Shown here: piece after piece, positions 2,772-8,788 of the stretch
Layout of the letters: every line of letters starts with the position of its first letter
Position numbering within the stretch: position 1 is the stretch's first letter
From: Aliiroseovarius sediminilitoris
Lineage (GTDB): Bacteria > Pseudomonadota > Alphaproteobacteria > Rhodobacterales > Rhodobacteraceae
Direction: 5' to 3'
Assembly (NCBI RefSeq): GCF_900109955.1
Contig: NZ_FOJB01000001.1
Span: 1,426,001-1,490,000 of the forward strand
DNA length: 64,000 nucleotides
Notes under the pieces: generated by a model
Told to the model about the DNA's origin: nothing
Seen by the model: the letters and a program-made list of their open reading frames with translations, nothing else
Database searches by the model: none
Made by a program: the position numbers and the translations under genes

Positions 2772-3467
2772 ATGTCCGTTGATGCACTGCTTTTCGATAA
2801 GGATGGCACATTGTTCCTGTTCGAGGCGACGTGGGAAAGCTGGGCGCATGCAGTGCTGATGCGCCTGACCGACGGTGATCTGGATCGGGCGCGTATGATT
2901 GGCGATGATATCGGTTTTGATGTCGATTCAAAACGCTTCCAGCCGACAAGCGTGATAATTGCATGCACCCCGACCGAAATAGTCTCTCAGCTTCGGCGGC
3001 ATGTCGCCTATTCCGCAGAAGCCTTGGAAACACTTCTTAATGAAGAGGCTGCCGTCGTCCCGCAGGTCGAGGCGGTGTCCTTGGCACCTTTTCTCACCCA
3101 ACTGCGCCAGCGAGGGCTGAAAATCGGTGTCGCGACCAACGATGCCGAATACCCCGCGCGTGCGCATCTGGACGCCGCCGGTGTGACCGGGTTGTTTGAT
3201 TTTATCTCAGGTTATGACAGCGGCCATGGTGCGAAACCTGCGCCTGGACCATGTCTGGCCTTTGCGACCGCGACCGGGGTTGCCCCCGACCGTGTGGCCA
3301 TGGTTGGCGACAGTTTGCATGACCTGCATGCCGGACGTGCGGCGGGGATGAAAACCATCGCTGTCCTGACCGGGATTGCGCAGGCAGACGAGCTTGCTCC
3401 GTTTGCTGATATTGTCCTGGACGATATCAGCCATATCCCGGCATGGCTGGACAGCGAGGAGGGCTAA
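2772..3467 (+). CDS. HAD-superfamily hydrolase, phosphoglycolate-phosphatase-like
   Basis: This 231-residue haloacid-dehalogenase-type phosphatase has motif I DKDGTL (nucleophile Asp and general acid Asp), motif II VATND, a motif III Lys in GAKPAPGP, and motif IV MVGDSLHDL. It has a helical cap inserted between motifs I and II (about residues 20-95), as in subfamily IA enzymes such as Gph. It is cytosolic and should dephosphorylate a small phosphometabolite; the substrate cannot be read from sequence. It starts 51 bases after the DUF3572 gene and may be co-transcribed. Confidence 0.85.
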   Translation: MSVDALLFDKDGTLFLFEATWESWAHAVLMRLTDGDLDRARMIGDDIGFDVDSKRFQPTSVIIACTPTEIVSQLRRHVAYSAEALETLLNEEAAVVPQVEAVSLAPFLTQLRQRGLKIGVATNDAEYPARAHLDAAGVTGLFDFISGYDSGHGAKPAPGPCLAFATATGVAPDRVAMVGDSLHDLHAGRAAGMKTIAVLTGIAQADELAPFADIVLDDISHIPAWLDSEEG

Positions 3468-3551: not shown

Positions 3552-4145
3552 ATGATTCATGGTTTGATTTTCTGGTGTTTCGAAGGGTTCCTTATTTTTA
3601 CGTATGGGGCCGGTCGTTGGCGTTCCGTGATGGGAAAACTTGACCTCGGCTATGATAGCTTCGAGCCGTTGTTTCGCTATGATGTCGATCTGGCGAACCG
3701 ACTGGTTACGGAAGCAGCCCATCAGTTGGACAAGCCGACCGACACTTTGCTGGAAGATTTCGGCACGTTTCTGGTGACAGATGAGCGGGTCGAACGGGTG
3801 CGGCGCTTGTTGCGCTTTGGTGGGGTGGATTACACAGATTTTTTGCACTCGCTTGAAGATCTGCATGGTCGCGCACAACTCGCCGTTCCCGATCTGGATT
3901 TGCCGACGATCGAGTTGGACGCCATCACGGCCGAGGAATTTCGGATCACCTGTTGTAGCGTCGCACAAGGGGTCGGTTTCATTCTGTTGGGGGTGCTTCG
4001 GGCGCTGGCAGACGATTATGGTGCGCTGGCCTATCTGGAACATTTGGGCCGCGAAGGGCAGGATGAGACGATATCGGTTCGTTTGCTGGAAATGCGGCAC
4101 GGCACGGGGCGCGCATTTCACCTTGCTGCCGGAGGGGTGCCATGA
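3552..4145 (+). CDS. H-NOX (heme NO-binding) domain protein with degenerate YxSxR motif
   Basis: This stand-alone H-NOX sensor has 197 residues and begins MIHGLIF, the usual family opening. The probable proximal heme ligand is H105 in LEDLHGRAQL. The normally invariant YxSxR, which clamps the heme propionates, reads C134-C-S136-V-A138, so Tyr and Arg are both lost and only Ser remains. The protein overlaps by ATGA with the cyclase gene at 4142. That is the standard bacterial pairing, in which H-NOX controls a c-di-GMP enzyme in trans. Heme binding and ligand specificity are uncertain given the lost residues. Confidence 0.82.
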   Translation: MIHGLIFWCFEGFLIFTYGAGRWRSVMGKLDLGYDSFEPLFRYDVDLANRLVTEAAHQLDKPTDTLLEDFGTFLVTDERVERVRRLLRFGGVDYTDFLHSLEDLHGRAQLAVPDLDLPTIELDAITAEEFRITCCSVAQGVGFILLGVLRALADDYGALAYLEHLGREGQDETISVRLLEMRHGTGRAFHLAAGGVP

Positions 4146-5149
4146 CCATGGACCAGACGATACCGATTGCGCCACACACACTGGATCAGATGATGCCGAT
4201 GCATCTGCTGCTGGATGGCGCCGCCCGGATCAGCCATGCCGGTCCTACAATCGAGAAAGTGTTTGGCGCGCCGCTTGTCGGGCGCAGTGCGTTTTCATTG
4301 TTCGAACTGCGGCGACCCCGCATTGTGCGGTCGATGGATGATGTGCACGCAATGGGTGATGCCAAGGTCTATTTGCGACTGAAGGACGGGTCCGGCACAA
4401 CGATGGTGGGGGCGGTCGCGGTCCTGCCTGGTGGAAGTCACGTGCTGATGAATCTGTCGTTCGGCTATTCCGTGGTCGATGCAGTCGCGCGCTATAAACT
4501 TGCGGGATCCGATTTTGCGCCGACCGACTTAACCGTCGAAATGCTCTATCTGATGGAGGCGAAGACCGCCGCGATGGAAGCAACGACCCAGCTTGCCCAT
4601 CGGCTGCACGGCGAAAAAGCCGAAGCGCAGGTGGAGGCGATGACCGACGGATTGACCGGGCTGCAAAACCGCCGCGCCTTTGACATCAACCTTAACCGAC
4701 AGATTGCCCGTGGCGCGGTGTTTTCACTGATGCATATCGACCTCGATTTTTTCAAAGCAGTCAATGACACCCAGGGACATGCTGCAGGGGATGCGGTGCT
4801 GCGCGAAGTGGCCAATGTGCTGCGGGATGAAACGCGGGATTCAGATATGGTTGCGCGTGTCGGGGGGGATGAGTTCGTCATTTTGTTTGGCCGGTTGGCC
4901 GAGGCTGACATGTTGGAAAGCATCGCGATGCGTATCATAGCGCGGCTTGAATGCCCGATCCCGTTCGACGGCAAGACCTGCCGCATTTCGGCCAGCATCG
5001 GCATTGCGCGCAGCACCGATTACGACAGCGTCTCTGCCGAGCAGATGGTGTCAGACGCCGATCTTGCGCTTTATATGTCCAAAGACAAGGGCCGTGCCTG
5101 CCAGACGATGTTTCGGCCCGAGTATCGTGAGACGCGGCAACAAGCCTGA
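4142..5149 (+). CDS. Diguanylate cyclase with HNOBA-like N-terminal domain, partner of H-NOX
   Basis: The 335 residues have three parts. Residues about 1-140 resemble the H-NOX-associated (HNOBA, PAS-like) domain of soluble guanylate cyclases, with the hallmark FELRRP and a SDFAPTDLTVEML segment. A short coiled-coil-like linker (about 141-165) follows, then a GGDEF domain (about 168-330). The catalytic motif is GGDEF, and an RDSD inhibitory site sits five residues before it. The start ATG lies inside the end of the H-NOX gene, so the two proteins should be made together. The likely role is NO- or redox-tuned c-di-GMP synthesis. The HNOBA assignment is by eye. Confidence 0.87.
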   Translation: MTMDQTIPIAPHTLDQMMPMHLLLDGAARISHAGPTIEKVFGAPLVGRSAFSLFELRRPRIVRSMDDVHAMGDAKVYLRLKDGSGTTMVGAVAVLPGGSHVLMNLSFGYSVVDAVARYKLAGSDFAPTDLTVEMLYLMEAKTAAMEATTQLAHRLHGEKAEAQVEAMTDGLTGLQNRRAFDINLNRQIARGAVFSLMHIDLDFFKAVNDTQGHAAGDAVLREVANVLRDETRDSDMVARVGGDEFVILFGRLAEADMLESIAMRIIARLECPIPFDGKTCRISASIGIARSTDYDSVSAEQMVSDADLALYMSKDKGRACQTMFRPEYRETRQQA

Positions 5150-5539: not shown

Positions 5540-6949
5540 ATGTTATCTATGAAATGGATCGGCAATATCAGGCGTTGGCAAAGCCTGACCCTTCCCGGAC
5601 AGTTTTTGCTGGCCGGGGCCATCGTGATGATTGGTGCCATGGTGCTTGTGGGAAACTGGATTTCGCAACGTATCGAAGATGCAGTTGTCCAGAATTCAGC
5701 AACGTCTGCGGCCTTGTTCATGGAAAGCTTTATTTCTCCGCTCAGTCAGGAATTGGCCGACACAGACACGCTGTCCCCACCCGCGCGACAGGCTCTGGCC
5801 GAAATATTCGACGGCACGACAATCGGTGAAAGGGTTGTTTCCTACAAAATCTGGCTTGCCGGTGGCCGAGTCGTCCATGCTTCGGATGTCTCATTGATCG
5901 GTCAGGTGTTTGAGCCGTCCGACGATCTGATCACCGCATGGAGCGGCGAGATCTCCTCTTCTTTCGAGGATCTGGACGATCTTGAGAATGTGGCAGAAGC
6001 AGCGCTTGGTGTCCCGCTCTTGGAAGTTTACAGCCCGATCCGACAGGTCTGGACCGGCGATGTCATCGCTGTGGCAGAGTTCTACGAGGTGGCCGATCAG
6101 TTGGCATCGGATATCATCAGCGCACGTCGAACAAGCTGGTTGGTTGTCGCTGGAACGTTTCTTGGCAGCGGCCTTCTTCTGTTCGGGATTGTTCAGGCGG
6201 GGGGGCGCACGATCCGGTTGCAGCGGATGGAATTGACAGAACAGCTGGCCAGGACGGAAACGATTTCGGCCCAGAATGCACAGCTGCGGCGACGCGTGGT
6301 CGCAGCTTCCTCGCGGGCCATTGCCCAGACCGAGCAAGCCATCCGCCGGATCGGGTCAGACCTTCACGATGGCCCGGCACAATACCTGTCCCTGGCGTCG
6401 TTACGTCTTGATGGGGCGTTGCGCGATCCCGAAGCGACCGAGCAGGATGCCACTTTGGTCAGGGAATCGCTGGACAAGGCCCTTGAGGAACTGCGGATCA
6501 TATCGCGGGGTCTGGCGCTGCCGGATATTGACACATTGGACGTCAAGACACTGATTGACCGGGCAATCAGTGATCACCATCGACAAACCGGGCTGGATAT
6601 CACAAATGATGTGCGAGTCGGTGCAGATTTACCCATGAATTATGCGCAAAAGTTGTGCATTTTCCGGTTCCTGCAAGAGGCGCTGTCGAATGCCAGCCGC
6701 CACGCTGATGTTGATGAGGCGTCCGTCACAGCGCGCACCGACGGGCTTGGAGTTTGTGTGACTGTGGCCGACGAGGGCACAGGTTTTGATCCGCACAAGT
6801 CACGGCAGATGCGGACCGATGGCGGTCAGGGGTTGCTTGGGTTGCGTGATCGTGCCGAAAGCATTGGGGGCACCTTGGCCATCATGTCCACGGTGGGCAA
6901 CGGCACAACATTGAAACTGACCCTGCCATATGAAGAGGCAGCACCATGA
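5540..6949 (+). CDS. NarL-class membrane sensor histidine kinase
   Basis: This is a 469-residue kinase. Membrane segment 1 is at about residues 21-40. A periplasmic sensor domain of roughly 155 residues follows, then membrane segment 2 at about 199-219. A cytoplasmic coiled coil leads to a HisKA_3 domain with DLHDGPAQ (phosphorylated His276), and then a HATPase domain with N-box EALSNASRHA and glycine box DGGQGLLGLRDR. The start could be the ATG at 5540 or the one at 5549; AGGTG at 5531 favours the former. It overlaps the regulator gene by ATGA at 6946, so the two form a cognate pair. The signal sensed is unknown. Confidence 0.9.
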   Translation: MLSMKWIGNIRRWQSLTLPGQFLLAGAIVMIGAMVLVGNWISQRIEDAVVQNSATSAALFMESFISPLSQELADTDTLSPPARQALAEIFDGTTIGERVVSYKIWLAGGRVVHASDVSLIGQVFEPSDDLITAWSGEISSSFEDLDDLENVAEAALGVPLLEVYSPIRQVWTGDVIAVAEFYEVADQLASDIISARRTSWLVVAGTFLGSGLLLFGIVQAGGRTIRLQRMELTEQLARTETISAQNAQLRRRVVAASSRAIAQTEQAIRRIGSDLHDGPAQYLSLASLRLDGALRDPEATEQDATLVRESLDKALEELRIISRGLALPDIDTLDVKTLIDRAISDHHRQTGLDITNDVRVGADLPMNYAQKLCIFRFLQEALSNASRHADVDEASVTARTDGLGVCVTVADEGTGFDPHKSRQMRTDGGQGLLGLRDRAESIGGTLAIMSTVGNGTTLKLTLPYEEAAP

Positions 6950-7590
6950 CAGCACGTATTATCCTGGCCGACGATCACCCGATTTTCAGGGATGGGCTGA
7001 TCAGCAGCATTCAGGAAACCGGTGAATTTGAAGTTGTCGGGGTCGGTGGGTCTGCGGACGAAGCCGTCGATCTGGCACGGCAGCATCAGCCGGATATTGC
7101 GCTTCTTGATCTATCGATGCCCGGAAACGGGATCAGTGCAGTGTCACGCATTTCGGCGGAAGGCAGTGCCAAGGCCATCGCAATGCTGACGGTTTCAGAA
7201 GATGGTGCAGACGTGACCGCCGCGATGCAGGCTGGGGCGATTGCCTATATCCTGAAAGGCGTGTCGGCGGGCGAACTGCGCGATGTGCTTTCAAAGGTAG
7301 CCGCCGGCGAGGCACATGTCTCGCCCGGACTGGCGGCCCAGATGTTGCGGATCATGCAGGATAAATCCCGAAAGGCACCTGATCCGATCGAGGAACTGAC
7401 CAAGCGGGAAGAAGATATTCTGAAGGGCGTTGTGGCAGGTAAAAGCAACAAAGAGATAGGGCAGGATCTGGGCATTCAGGAAAAGACCGTCAAACACTAC
7501 ATGACCAATATCCTGAGCAAACTTCACGCGCGCAATCGGGTCGAAGCCGCGCTGATTGCACAAAAGGCCTGGGGCCAGCCGAAGTCATAG
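6946..7590 (+). CDS. LuxR/NarL-family response regulator
   Basis: This 214-residue transcription factor is the partner of the kinase it overlaps. The receiver domain (about 1-120) has acidic residues D9/D10 in LADDH, phosphorylatable D55 in LLDLSMPG, and a Lys in YILKG. The C-terminal LuxR helix-turn-helix (about 145-208) includes LTKREEDILKGV and KEIGQDLGIQEKTVKHY. Its targets are unknown. The next gene is convergent and overlaps by six bases at its 3' end, so this gene closes the operon. Confidence 0.92.
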   Translation: MTARIILADDHPIFRDGLISSIQETGEFEVVGVGGSADEAVDLARQHQPDIALLDLSMPGNGISAVSRISAEGSAKAIAMLTVSEDGADVTAAMQAGAIAYILKGVSAGELRDVLSKVAAGEAHVSPGLAAQMLRIMQDKSRKAPDPIEELTKREEDILKGVVAGKSNKEIGQDLGIQEKTVKHYMTNILSKLHARNRVEAALIAQKAWGQPKS

Positions 7591-8085
7591 CCCCGCGGCA
7601 GCCTGCATTCTTCGAAGATCTTCATAGGTGGCCGGGCGGTCTGTCACAGTGCGACCTTTCGGGTCAACCAGTCGATAGCGCCCGTTCAGAATGCGTTCGT
7701 CCCATCCGTTGGCATATTTCAAATGCAGGTTCTCGGGCGGCACGGGAAAGGGGTCAGGCGCGCCGGTGTTGCGGTCTGTATTGGTGCCTCGGTCGTTATC
7801 ATCGCGCGCTCTGTCGTTGTCTCTGTCGTTGTCACGGTCGTTGTCGCGGTCGTTGTCGCGATCATCGTCATCATCATCGCCGCGCCCATCCCCGCCGCGA
7901 TGCCCGCGTCTGTCATCATCGTCCTTGTCGTCGTCATCATCGCCACCCCGCCCCCGGCCGCGGCCCTTGTCGGCAAAAGCATAGGCGTAGCCTATGCTGA
8001 CGCCATCATTGATCTTCTTGGTAAACGACACGGGGGTCGGCACCAGAAACCCGGCCAGAATCAAGATCTTGAGGAGTCTAGTCAT
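7585..8085 (-). CDS. Secreted Asp/Arg-repeat protein of unknown function (paralogue-like neighbour at 8216)
   Basis: The 166 residues have a hydrophobic N-terminus (about 1-22, MTRLLKILILAGFLVP) that looks like a signal peptide. A low-complexity middle follows, starting GRGRGRGGDDDDD and continuing as repeated DNDR units. The folded-looking tail (about 105-166) contains NGRYRLVDPKGRTVTDRPATYEDLRRMQ. Both halves are compositionally extreme. I recognise no enzyme motif; the acidic repeats could bind cations. The 3' end overlaps the response regulator tail by six bases (convergent). Confidence 0.72.
   Translation of the reverse strand: MTRLLKILILAGFLVPTPVSFTKKINDGVSIGYAYAFADKGRGRGRGGDDDDDKDDDDRRGHRGGDGRGDDDDDDRDNDRDNDRDNDRDNDRARDDNDRGTNTDRNTGAPDPFPVPPENLHLKYANGWDERILNGRYRLVDPKGRTVTDRPATYEDLRRMQAAAGL
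7811..7870. repeat. 12-bp tandem repeat coding for DNDR units
   Basis: About five adjacent copies of a 12-base unit close to CGGTCGTTGTCG (plus strand), with decreasing identity at the edges. They are in frame with the protein on the minus strand, where each copy gives Asp-Asn-Asp-Arg. Length changes would add or remove whole units without breaking the frame. Confidence 0.8.
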
Positions 8086-8215
8086 GCGTTTCCTACCACC
8101 ATAGCGGCACCTGTTTCACAACAGGGGGTCCCACCCACACTAACCGCGGGGGCGGGACAAAGCATCGGACGTTGGTCTGGCCTTCACAGATAGCGGGACA
8201 GCCAGAAGCGTGTCT

Positions 8216-8608
8216 TCACACACGGCATTCCGCGTGTTCGGCCAGATCGCCCGGGTCGTCACAGCCTGATCCGCCCGGAATGCGAGGCCGATCGCGCCCG
8301 CTGGAACCATCATCCTGACGATCATTCCGGCGGTCGTCCCTGCGGTCATCCCTGCGATCATCGCGACGGTCGTCATCGCGACGGTCGTCATCACGATCCT
8401 TATCTCGGTCGTGATCACCTCCGCGACCCCGTCCGCGCCCGCGCCGGGCAGTTTCGTAGGTGCCGTCGCCTTCGATGGCGATCGGACCGGTTTCTACGGT
8501 TGTGGTCGCGAAACCATTCCCGTCGCTGACCGAGGCGAAGGATGTGCCTGGGGATATCAGGCCCGCGCCGACGATGAACATGCTGGCAAAAAGGGTGTTG
8601 GTCTTCAT
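8216..8608 (-). CDS. Secreted Arg/Asp-repeat protein of unknown function
   Basis: I place the start at 8608 (MKTNTLFASMFIVGAG...), preceded by GGAGAG at good spacing, although the open frame extends to 8737. The 130-residue product has a clear signal peptide (about 1-24, cleavage near SFA-SV) and a short mature N-terminus. Next comes RRGRGRGRGGD, then Asp-Arg repeats (DDRR/RDDR), and a tail with GSGCDDPGD and a final Cys (AEHAECRV). The GRGRGRGGD block is shared with the neighbour at 7585. I cannot name a function; envelope or cation association is a guess. Confidence 0.7.
   Translation of the reverse strand: MKTNTLFASMFIVGAGLISPGTSFASVSDGNGFATTTVETGPIAIEGDGTYETARRGRGRGRGGDHDRDKDRDDDRRDDDRRDDRRDDRRDDRRNDRQDDGSSGRDRPRIPGGSGCDDPGDLAEHAECRV
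8328..8394. repeat. Tandem 12/15-bp repeats coding for RRDD-type units
   Basis: Imperfect copies of units like CGGTCGTC(C/A)CTG and CGACGGTCGTCATCG (plus strand) lie in tandem and in frame with the minus-strand protein, giving Arg-Arg-Asp-Asp-type repeats. All lengths are multiples of three. Confidence 0.7.
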
Positions 8609-8788
8609 GGTGCTCTCCATTGTTTGCGTCTGTGAGAGCAGTTTGTCAGGCGGTGCTTCGCACTGGTATTGACGAACGGCGCATAGATTTGCAGCAGAGG
8701 TCTGACCAGATTTCAGACCAATGTCTGATTGGTGCATAGCGGGGTCGGGGATATTGTCGCCGGGCAGGTGGCCCAGACGGAAAGACGT

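Follow-up and report, generated by a model that had tools for sequence, protein, structure and literature searches.

The 2003 paper in which the HNOB and HNOBA domains were defined reportedly placed bacterial HNOBA next to genes for HNOB, and is also said to have described HNOB versions without the His. A 2022 review on c-di-GMP links both HNOB and HNOBA to GGDEF proteins (PMC8846402), and the Dinoroseobacter HNOX/Dgc1 and Paracoccus hnoX/dgcA pairs have been studied. The original prediction for the locus analyzed here, according to which bacterial H-NOX/cyclase pairs are little described with an HNOBA module, is thus not supported on this point, and the H-NOX/HNOBA-cyclase pair is not new in kind. 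We found no published statement in the open-access literature on loss of the YxSxR motif in H-NOX proteins resembling group 5 (see below) or on a retained contact of the Arg258 type, which is weak evidence of absence.

In Dinoroseobacter shibae, laboratory tests, as cited in later papers, reportedly found that NO-bound HNOX inhibits Dgc1; the H-NOX gene there lies beside the cyclase gene, as it does in the window (i.e., the whole 64,000-nucleotide stretch of Aliiroseovarius sediminilitoris DNA that was analyzed). In Paracoccus denitrificans, hnoX and dgcA (Pden_3719/3720) are overlapping H-NOX and GGDEF genes, and sections of the report on them (PMC5588039) state that BapA is absent from the hnoX mutant and its biofilm formation partly impaired, the reverse of what is seen in the dgcAB mutant, that the H-NOX His is missing, that the cyclase N-terminus has an unknown function, and that NO also acts without hnoX. 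The H-NOX protein of P. denitrificans HAMBI_2443 (not the strain of that report) has Pro105 where the window has His, which fits the reported missing His, while the N-terminus of the Paracoccus cyclase appears HNOBA-like by eye but, unlike that of the window, has no Pfam HNOBA match at E <= 0.1. The P. denitrificans H-NOX was also the starting point of a similarity-network set termed group 5, in which, according to part of a 2022 review (PMC8738867), fewer than 10% of the proteins have the proximal His, most have Pro, and the signal sensed is posed as a question; HNOBA and YxSxR are not mentioned in the section and passages of that review devoted to group 5. In a pairwise comparison, this P. 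denitrificans protein matched the window H-NOX with a similarity of 36% across 75% of the latter (E 5e-14).

Animal soluble guanylate cyclase (sGC) shares with the window pair the order H-NOX, HNOBA/PAS, helix and cyclase, and the "pseudo-H-NOX" of its alpha subunit is haem-free too and has no established function; it differs in having one polypeptide per subunit, a class III cyclase output and a heterodimeric structure. Pairs of H-NOX and HNOBA-histidine kinase (Nostoc PAS 2p04/2p08 and our loci L157-L160 and L173) also consist of an H-NOX gene followed by that of an HNOBA protein; in contrast to the window, these five loci have a kinase-type output (assigned by Pfam for L159, by motif or by eye for the others) and the canonical His and YxSxR in H-NOX. 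They come from other alphaproteobacteria. Within Rhodobacteraceae, a canonical H-NOX gene (His and YxSxR) overlaps an HNOBA-GGDEF-EAL gene at locus L011/L166 (genome G294), where HNOBA scores exactly at the cut-off (23.4 bits); this pair may connect the canonical pairs with the eroded ones.

The gene pair and its domains

The window pair comprises the following features (window positions).

3552..4145, + strand: H-NOX (HNOB) gene, 197 aa, stop included in coordinates (Pfam HNOB)
3864..3866, + strand: codon CAT of His105, the proximal haem-ligand position (alignment to Nostoc H-NOX H105)
3951..3965, + strand: C-C-S-V-A in place of the haem-propionate motif YxSxR (alignment to Nostoc YQSTR)
4142..4145, + strand: ATGA stop-start overlap of the H-NOX and cyclase genes (ORF coordinates)
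4142..5149, + strand: HNOBA-GGDEF diguanylate cyclase gene, 335 aa, stop included in coordinates (Pfam)
4163..4390, + strand: HNOBA (PAS-like) domain, residues 8-83 (Pfam match; longer stretch by profile homology)
4301..4318, + strand: FELRRP, the second Arg of which (R58) aligns with sGC beta-Arg258 (profile alignment)
4508..4528, + strand: SDFAPTD, the counterpart of sGC ADIPLHD where PAS meets the coiled coil (profile alignment)
4526..4621, + strand: linker helix with conserved E133, LYL, E139 and A140 (low-confidence model and alignment)
4637..5095, + strand: GGDEF domain (Pfam)
4835-4846, + strand: cyclase I-site RDSD (motif)
4862-4876, + strand: cyclase GGDEF motif (motif)

The open reading frames (3552-4145 and 4142-5149) confirmed that the H-NOX gene overlaps the cyclase gene by ATGA, and an overlap of -4 was found in 87 of the 124 raw rows having a cyclase (listed matches, with the window and its duplicate L001 counted). 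A survey of H-NOX neighbours in Rhodobacteraceae, which the original prediction had proposed, was run and found a GGDEF ORF adjoining 123 of 125 window-like H-NOX genes among the matches listed (a duplicate and a reassigned row removed), the two exceptions, L045 and L083, both lying at contig ends; a GGDEF ORF adjoined only 3 of the 26 canonical H-NOX rows listed.

Pfam assigned HNOB (PF07700) to the window H-NOX with 69.1 bits (cut-off 25.5) and GGDEF to residues 166-318 of the cyclase with 137.5 bits; both the GGDEF motif and the RxxD I-site are intact, and the output of the pair is GGDEF rather than a class III nucleotide cyclase. As the GGDEF motif is present in 123/123 window-like cyclases among the matches listed, and GGDEF together with the I-site in 121/123, these cyclases look active.

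When the N-terminus of the cyclase was searched against HNOBA, PF07701 matched residues 8-83 above its cut-off (30.5 bits, cut-off 23.4, E 3.3e-7), the match spanning positions 2-78 of the 216-position profile, i.e., its first third only. The lack of an HNOBA match that would have counted against the original prediction was thus not observed. At E <= 0.01, HNOBA was also matched in 59 of 62 cyclase N-termini, namely that of the window and those of 61 relatives, with no other family listed. A profile of these 62 N-termini, searched against solved structures, aligned its positions 8-157 with residues 206-369 of moth sGC beta-1 (E 6.2e-9) and, over a shorter stretch, matched Nostoc PAS/H-NOXA 2p04 (E 4.2e-8) and 2p08 (E 1.6e-7); human sGC alpha-1 (E 7.4e-5) and beta-1 (E 2.1e-4) were matched as well. 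The window N-terminus alone gave much weaker matches (2p04, E 0.001; sGC beta-1, E 0.98), and the homology to HNOBA and sGC therefore rests on the family profile and Pfam.

Both motifs to which the original prediction had pointed fell on sGC counterparts in the profile alignment, i.e., the FELRRP segment on VRP and the SDF...HD-like segment, read here as SDF..TD, on ADIPLHD at the PAS/coiled-coil junction; D124, F125 and D129 are nearly invariant in the alignment of 62 N-termini. The short helix expected before GGDEF was predicted at residues 129-156 of a weak cyclase model (mean pLDDT 62, residues 108-174 under 50), the strands of which fit PAS. Foldseek with this model listed PAS-GGDEF and sGC chains, the sGC TM-scores being low (about 0.3), and a second structural search listed mostly GGDEF domains, while the H-NOX model (mean pLDDT 69) matched Nostoc H-NOX 4iae (TM 0.72, E 9e-11). 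Both models were built from 7-row alignments and are weak, and no residue-level claim is based on them. Overall, Pfam and profile results, with weaker support from the fold, bear out the sGC order of H-NOX, HNOBA, helix and cyclase, split over two proteins and with a GGDEF output; on sequence evidence, the H-NOX/HNOBA-GGDEF architecture is real and had been correctly read.

Haem-site residues of the H-NOX protein

Within the family, taken here as Rhodobacteraceae as delimited by GTDB, profile searches found HNOB in 221 and HNOBA in 102 of the 295 genomes, the latter count including some partial matches to the coiled-coil part of the profile. The H-NOX rows compared were matches listed best-first, a sample that leans to better HNOB scores, and the proportion with His given here may therefore be too high. 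They comprised 30 loci (L011-L040) and 116 further listed places; five more listed places were added later, four of them window-like (H, P, P and H at position 105; one broken by a stop) and one canonical-like with YxHxR. An alignment of 153 rows yielded 125 window-like and 27 canonical proteins after one duplicate had been dropped and one row, L038, moved from the window-like to the canonical set; rows dropped were L001 (duplicates the window), L003 (same gene) and L040 (which repeats the gene of L041). L038 has an intact YxSxR motif and Gln in place of the proximal His.

Among the matches listed, the proximal His was found in 14 of 125 window-like and 26 of 27 canonical proteins, and YxSxR in 0/125 and 27/27, respectively; with the four later rows, the window-like counts are 16/129 and 0/129. 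The commonest residue at position 105 of the listed window-like proteins is Pro (83/125). With His mostly replaced, the window-like set thus resembles group 5, from which it differs in that the window H-NOX itself has His and in that the share of His among the matches listed is slightly above the "fewer than 10%" given in part of the review. Pro118 is present in all rows shown of both sets, and the window H-NOX keeps both His105 and Pro118 but has C-x-S-x-A instead of YxSxR. Locus L113 (genome G035), which we presume to be the probable Dinoroseobacter homologue, is like the window in combining an HNOBA match (31.5 bits) with His105 and in lacking YxSxR.

The six nearest loci found (L005-L010; five from Aliiroseovarius, and L007 from an alphaproteobacterial MAG) are 54-90% identical to the window H-NOX. 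Between V80 and P118 the window and these loci hardly differ except at position 105, which is H in the window and S, R, R, R, R and K in L005-L010; a single base separates the window codon CAT from CGT, which occurs in one of the six. The haem sensor implied by the original prediction is thus not borne out, as YxSxR, which anchors haem, is missing and not even the nearest relatives retain the proximal His. Judged by these residues, the window H-NOX does not look like a canonical haem domain, ordinary haem-NO sensing is probably absent in most family members, and the single retained His105 of A. sediminilitoris may be incidental.

No replacement haem ligand conserved in all rows was seen when H99, Cys134 and H3 were examined in the 125 listed rows. 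H99 occurs in 83/125 and shows no trade-off with H105 (74/111 without His105, 9/14 with it), Cys134 occurs in 74/125 of the matches listed, and none of the three residues consistently replaces His105.

In a sample of 385 genomes of the class, HNOB was found in 18, of which 13 lie outside Rhodobacteraceae. YxSxR is present somewhere in the frame in 12 of these 13 matches, with a chance match possible in the long frame of L193; the remaining one, L197, has YxSxN (by eye). L197 encodes an HNOB-like protein ahead of an apparent NtrC-type regulator (by eye).

A candidate docking contact and the proposed switch

According to part of the sGC literature, the PAS residue beta-Arg258 touches the alpha-F helix of H-NOX, its partner being Asp106 when the enzyme is inactive and Asp102 when it is active. 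The profile alignment, combined with the two-residue offset between moth and human, places beta-Arg258 at R58 of the window cyclase, the second Arg of FELRRP. Among the matches listed, Arg is found at this position in 110 of 123 window-like cyclases (13/14 paired with a His-bearing and 97/109 with a His-less H-NOX), Asp or Glu at H-NOX position 102 in 14/14 His-bearing and 104/109 His-less proteins, Arg at H-NOX position 107 in 14/14 and 105/109, and R58 together with acidic 102 in 106/123. At position 106 the window H-NOX has Gly, not Asp. The acidic residue at 102 is also general in canonical H-NOX proteins, which mostly have no HNOBA partner, and is not specific to the pair. By eye, R-P stands at the same place of HNOBA in the proteins with kinase-type output (L157-L160, L173) and in the HNOBA-GGDEF-EAL protein L166, each beside a canonical H-NOX. 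The suggestion of the original prediction that HNOBA may be the meeting point of sensor and enzyme gains support from the retention of the beta-Arg258 equivalent in most of the listed cyclases, and we infer that the contact side looks preserved where the haem side has been lost. It is the joint occurrence of an eroded haem site and an apparently retained contact that adds interest.

We regard it as fairly probable that the pair forms a two-gene c-di-GMP switch like a split sGC, in which the H-NOX protein docks on HNOBA/PAS and sets GGDEF activity, and is haem-free or unusually liganded in most members. The H-NOX-fold protein would use its alpha-F helix to bind the HNOBA/PAS domain and the helix next to it in the partner, and the docked protein would shift the activity of the cyclase dimer, probably by inhibition. 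The sequences themselves display the domains, their order, the near-constant pairing and conserved candidate docking residues; inhibition of the cyclase is taken from the literature on homologues and is accordingly put forward by analogy. As most members examined have lost the usual haem-holding residues, the H-NOX protein is probably a haem-free or unusually liganded regulator in most of them, and the Paracoccus H-NOX with Pro105, taken together with the phenotype of the hnoX mutant, indicates that a His-less member is active in cells. More tentatively, and with somewhat greater doubt than trust on our part, the H-NOX protein may be a bacterial counterpart of the haem-free sGC alpha domain, with the haem-free domain as the only H-NOX in the complex.

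It is rather unlikely that the window H-NOX is an ordinary NO sensor in which His105 would hold haem, NO would release the His-Fe bond and the NO-bound protein would shut off the cyclase, YxSxR being dispensable. The Dinoroseobacter HNOX is described in part of the literature as haem-based and NO-responsive, and since L113 lacks YxSxR while that HNOX is reported to be inhibitory when NO-bound, loss of the motif alone need not abolish haem binding; the window H-NOX, moreover, keeps His105 and Pro118. Three cytochrome cd1 matches in one cluster indicate that the window genome probably makes NO, but a cd1 match (NirS-type, PF02239) is also present in 5/6 of the nearest genomes, and these probable NO producers manage without His105, having S, R or K where the surrounding residues hardly vary. 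His105 is commoner in genomes with a nir match (9/14 His-bearing vs 35/105 His-less rows, Fisher p 0.037; 119 rows with a genome, later-added rows left out, nir being a PF02239 or TIGR02376 match at E <= 1e-30), yet the association is unsupported once relatedness is allowed for, as only 3 independent pairs on supported branches are left and show no trend. On the tree, His105 requires 11 changes compared to a shuffled mean of 13.5 (8 of 500 shuffles were as low), in a tree with many weak branches and with a change count that cannot tell gain from loss; the residue appears somewhat clustered and so may not reflect mere drift, although as many as 11 changes, like the presence of His in only 14 of the 125 window-like rows listed, speak against a maintained NO sensor.

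Another signal, i.e., another haem ligand, another cofactor or redox sensed through a cysteine such as Cys134, appears improbable. Cys134 takes the place of the YxSxR tyrosine in the 74 listed rows that have it but is missing from the other 51 of 125, and although redox control has been reported for a haem-free Vibrio H-NOX, group 5 has no conserved Cys, both according to parts of the 2022 review (PMC8738867). The H-NOX profile, Pro118 and many other positions are still conserved, in favour of this reading, but they include no replacement ligand common to all listed rows. Conservation of this kind also speaks against a decaying remnant that has lost its role and is kept by chance beside the cyclase, a reading we consider hardly credible: haem-site residues are lost and one relative (L209) has an in-frame stop, but the motifs RRLLRF and ADDYG as well as Pro118 are nearly invariant, the pairing with a cyclase holds for nearly all window-like genes listed, and the Paracoccus hnoX mutant has a phenotype. 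The switch favoured here, with H-NOX docking on HNOBA, would be a compact test system, consisting of two small, probably soluble proteins in which the sGC contact is open to mutation, and there are natural variants, 79-90% identical, with different residues at the haem-ligand position.

Surroundings of the gene pair

HNOB is matched once in the window genome, GGDEF three times and EAL twice. An unusual H-NOX start codon in the relatives was ruled out, with ATG one codon upstream in L005-L009 and at the second aligned codon in L010. No CtrA site was seen upstream of the H-NOX gene; with one mismatch allowed, the window has 2 CtrA matches vs 3.3 expected, neither of them near this gene.

A PleD-like GGDEF protein with a receiver domain is encoded on the opposite strand about 1.2 kb upstream of the pair (956-2341, - strand), its top NCBIfam match being PRK09581 with 329.8 bits, under the cut-off of 474. 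About 0.4 kb downstream of the cyclase gene, mutually overlapping genes for a histidine kinase and a NarL-type response regulator occupy 5540-7590 (+ strand), and two ORFs at 7585-8737 (- strand) contain long low-complexity repeats rich in Asp, Arg and Asn. Immediately upstream of the H-NOX gene lies a gene for a HAD-type phosphatase (2772-3467, + strand). The HAD and trimethylamine methyltransferase families are named as H-NOX neighbours in a figure legend of the 2022 review, which leaves the H-NOX group unspecified (PMC8738867), and one gene of each family precedes the H-NOX/cyclase pair on a plasmid of Phaeobacter (L205).
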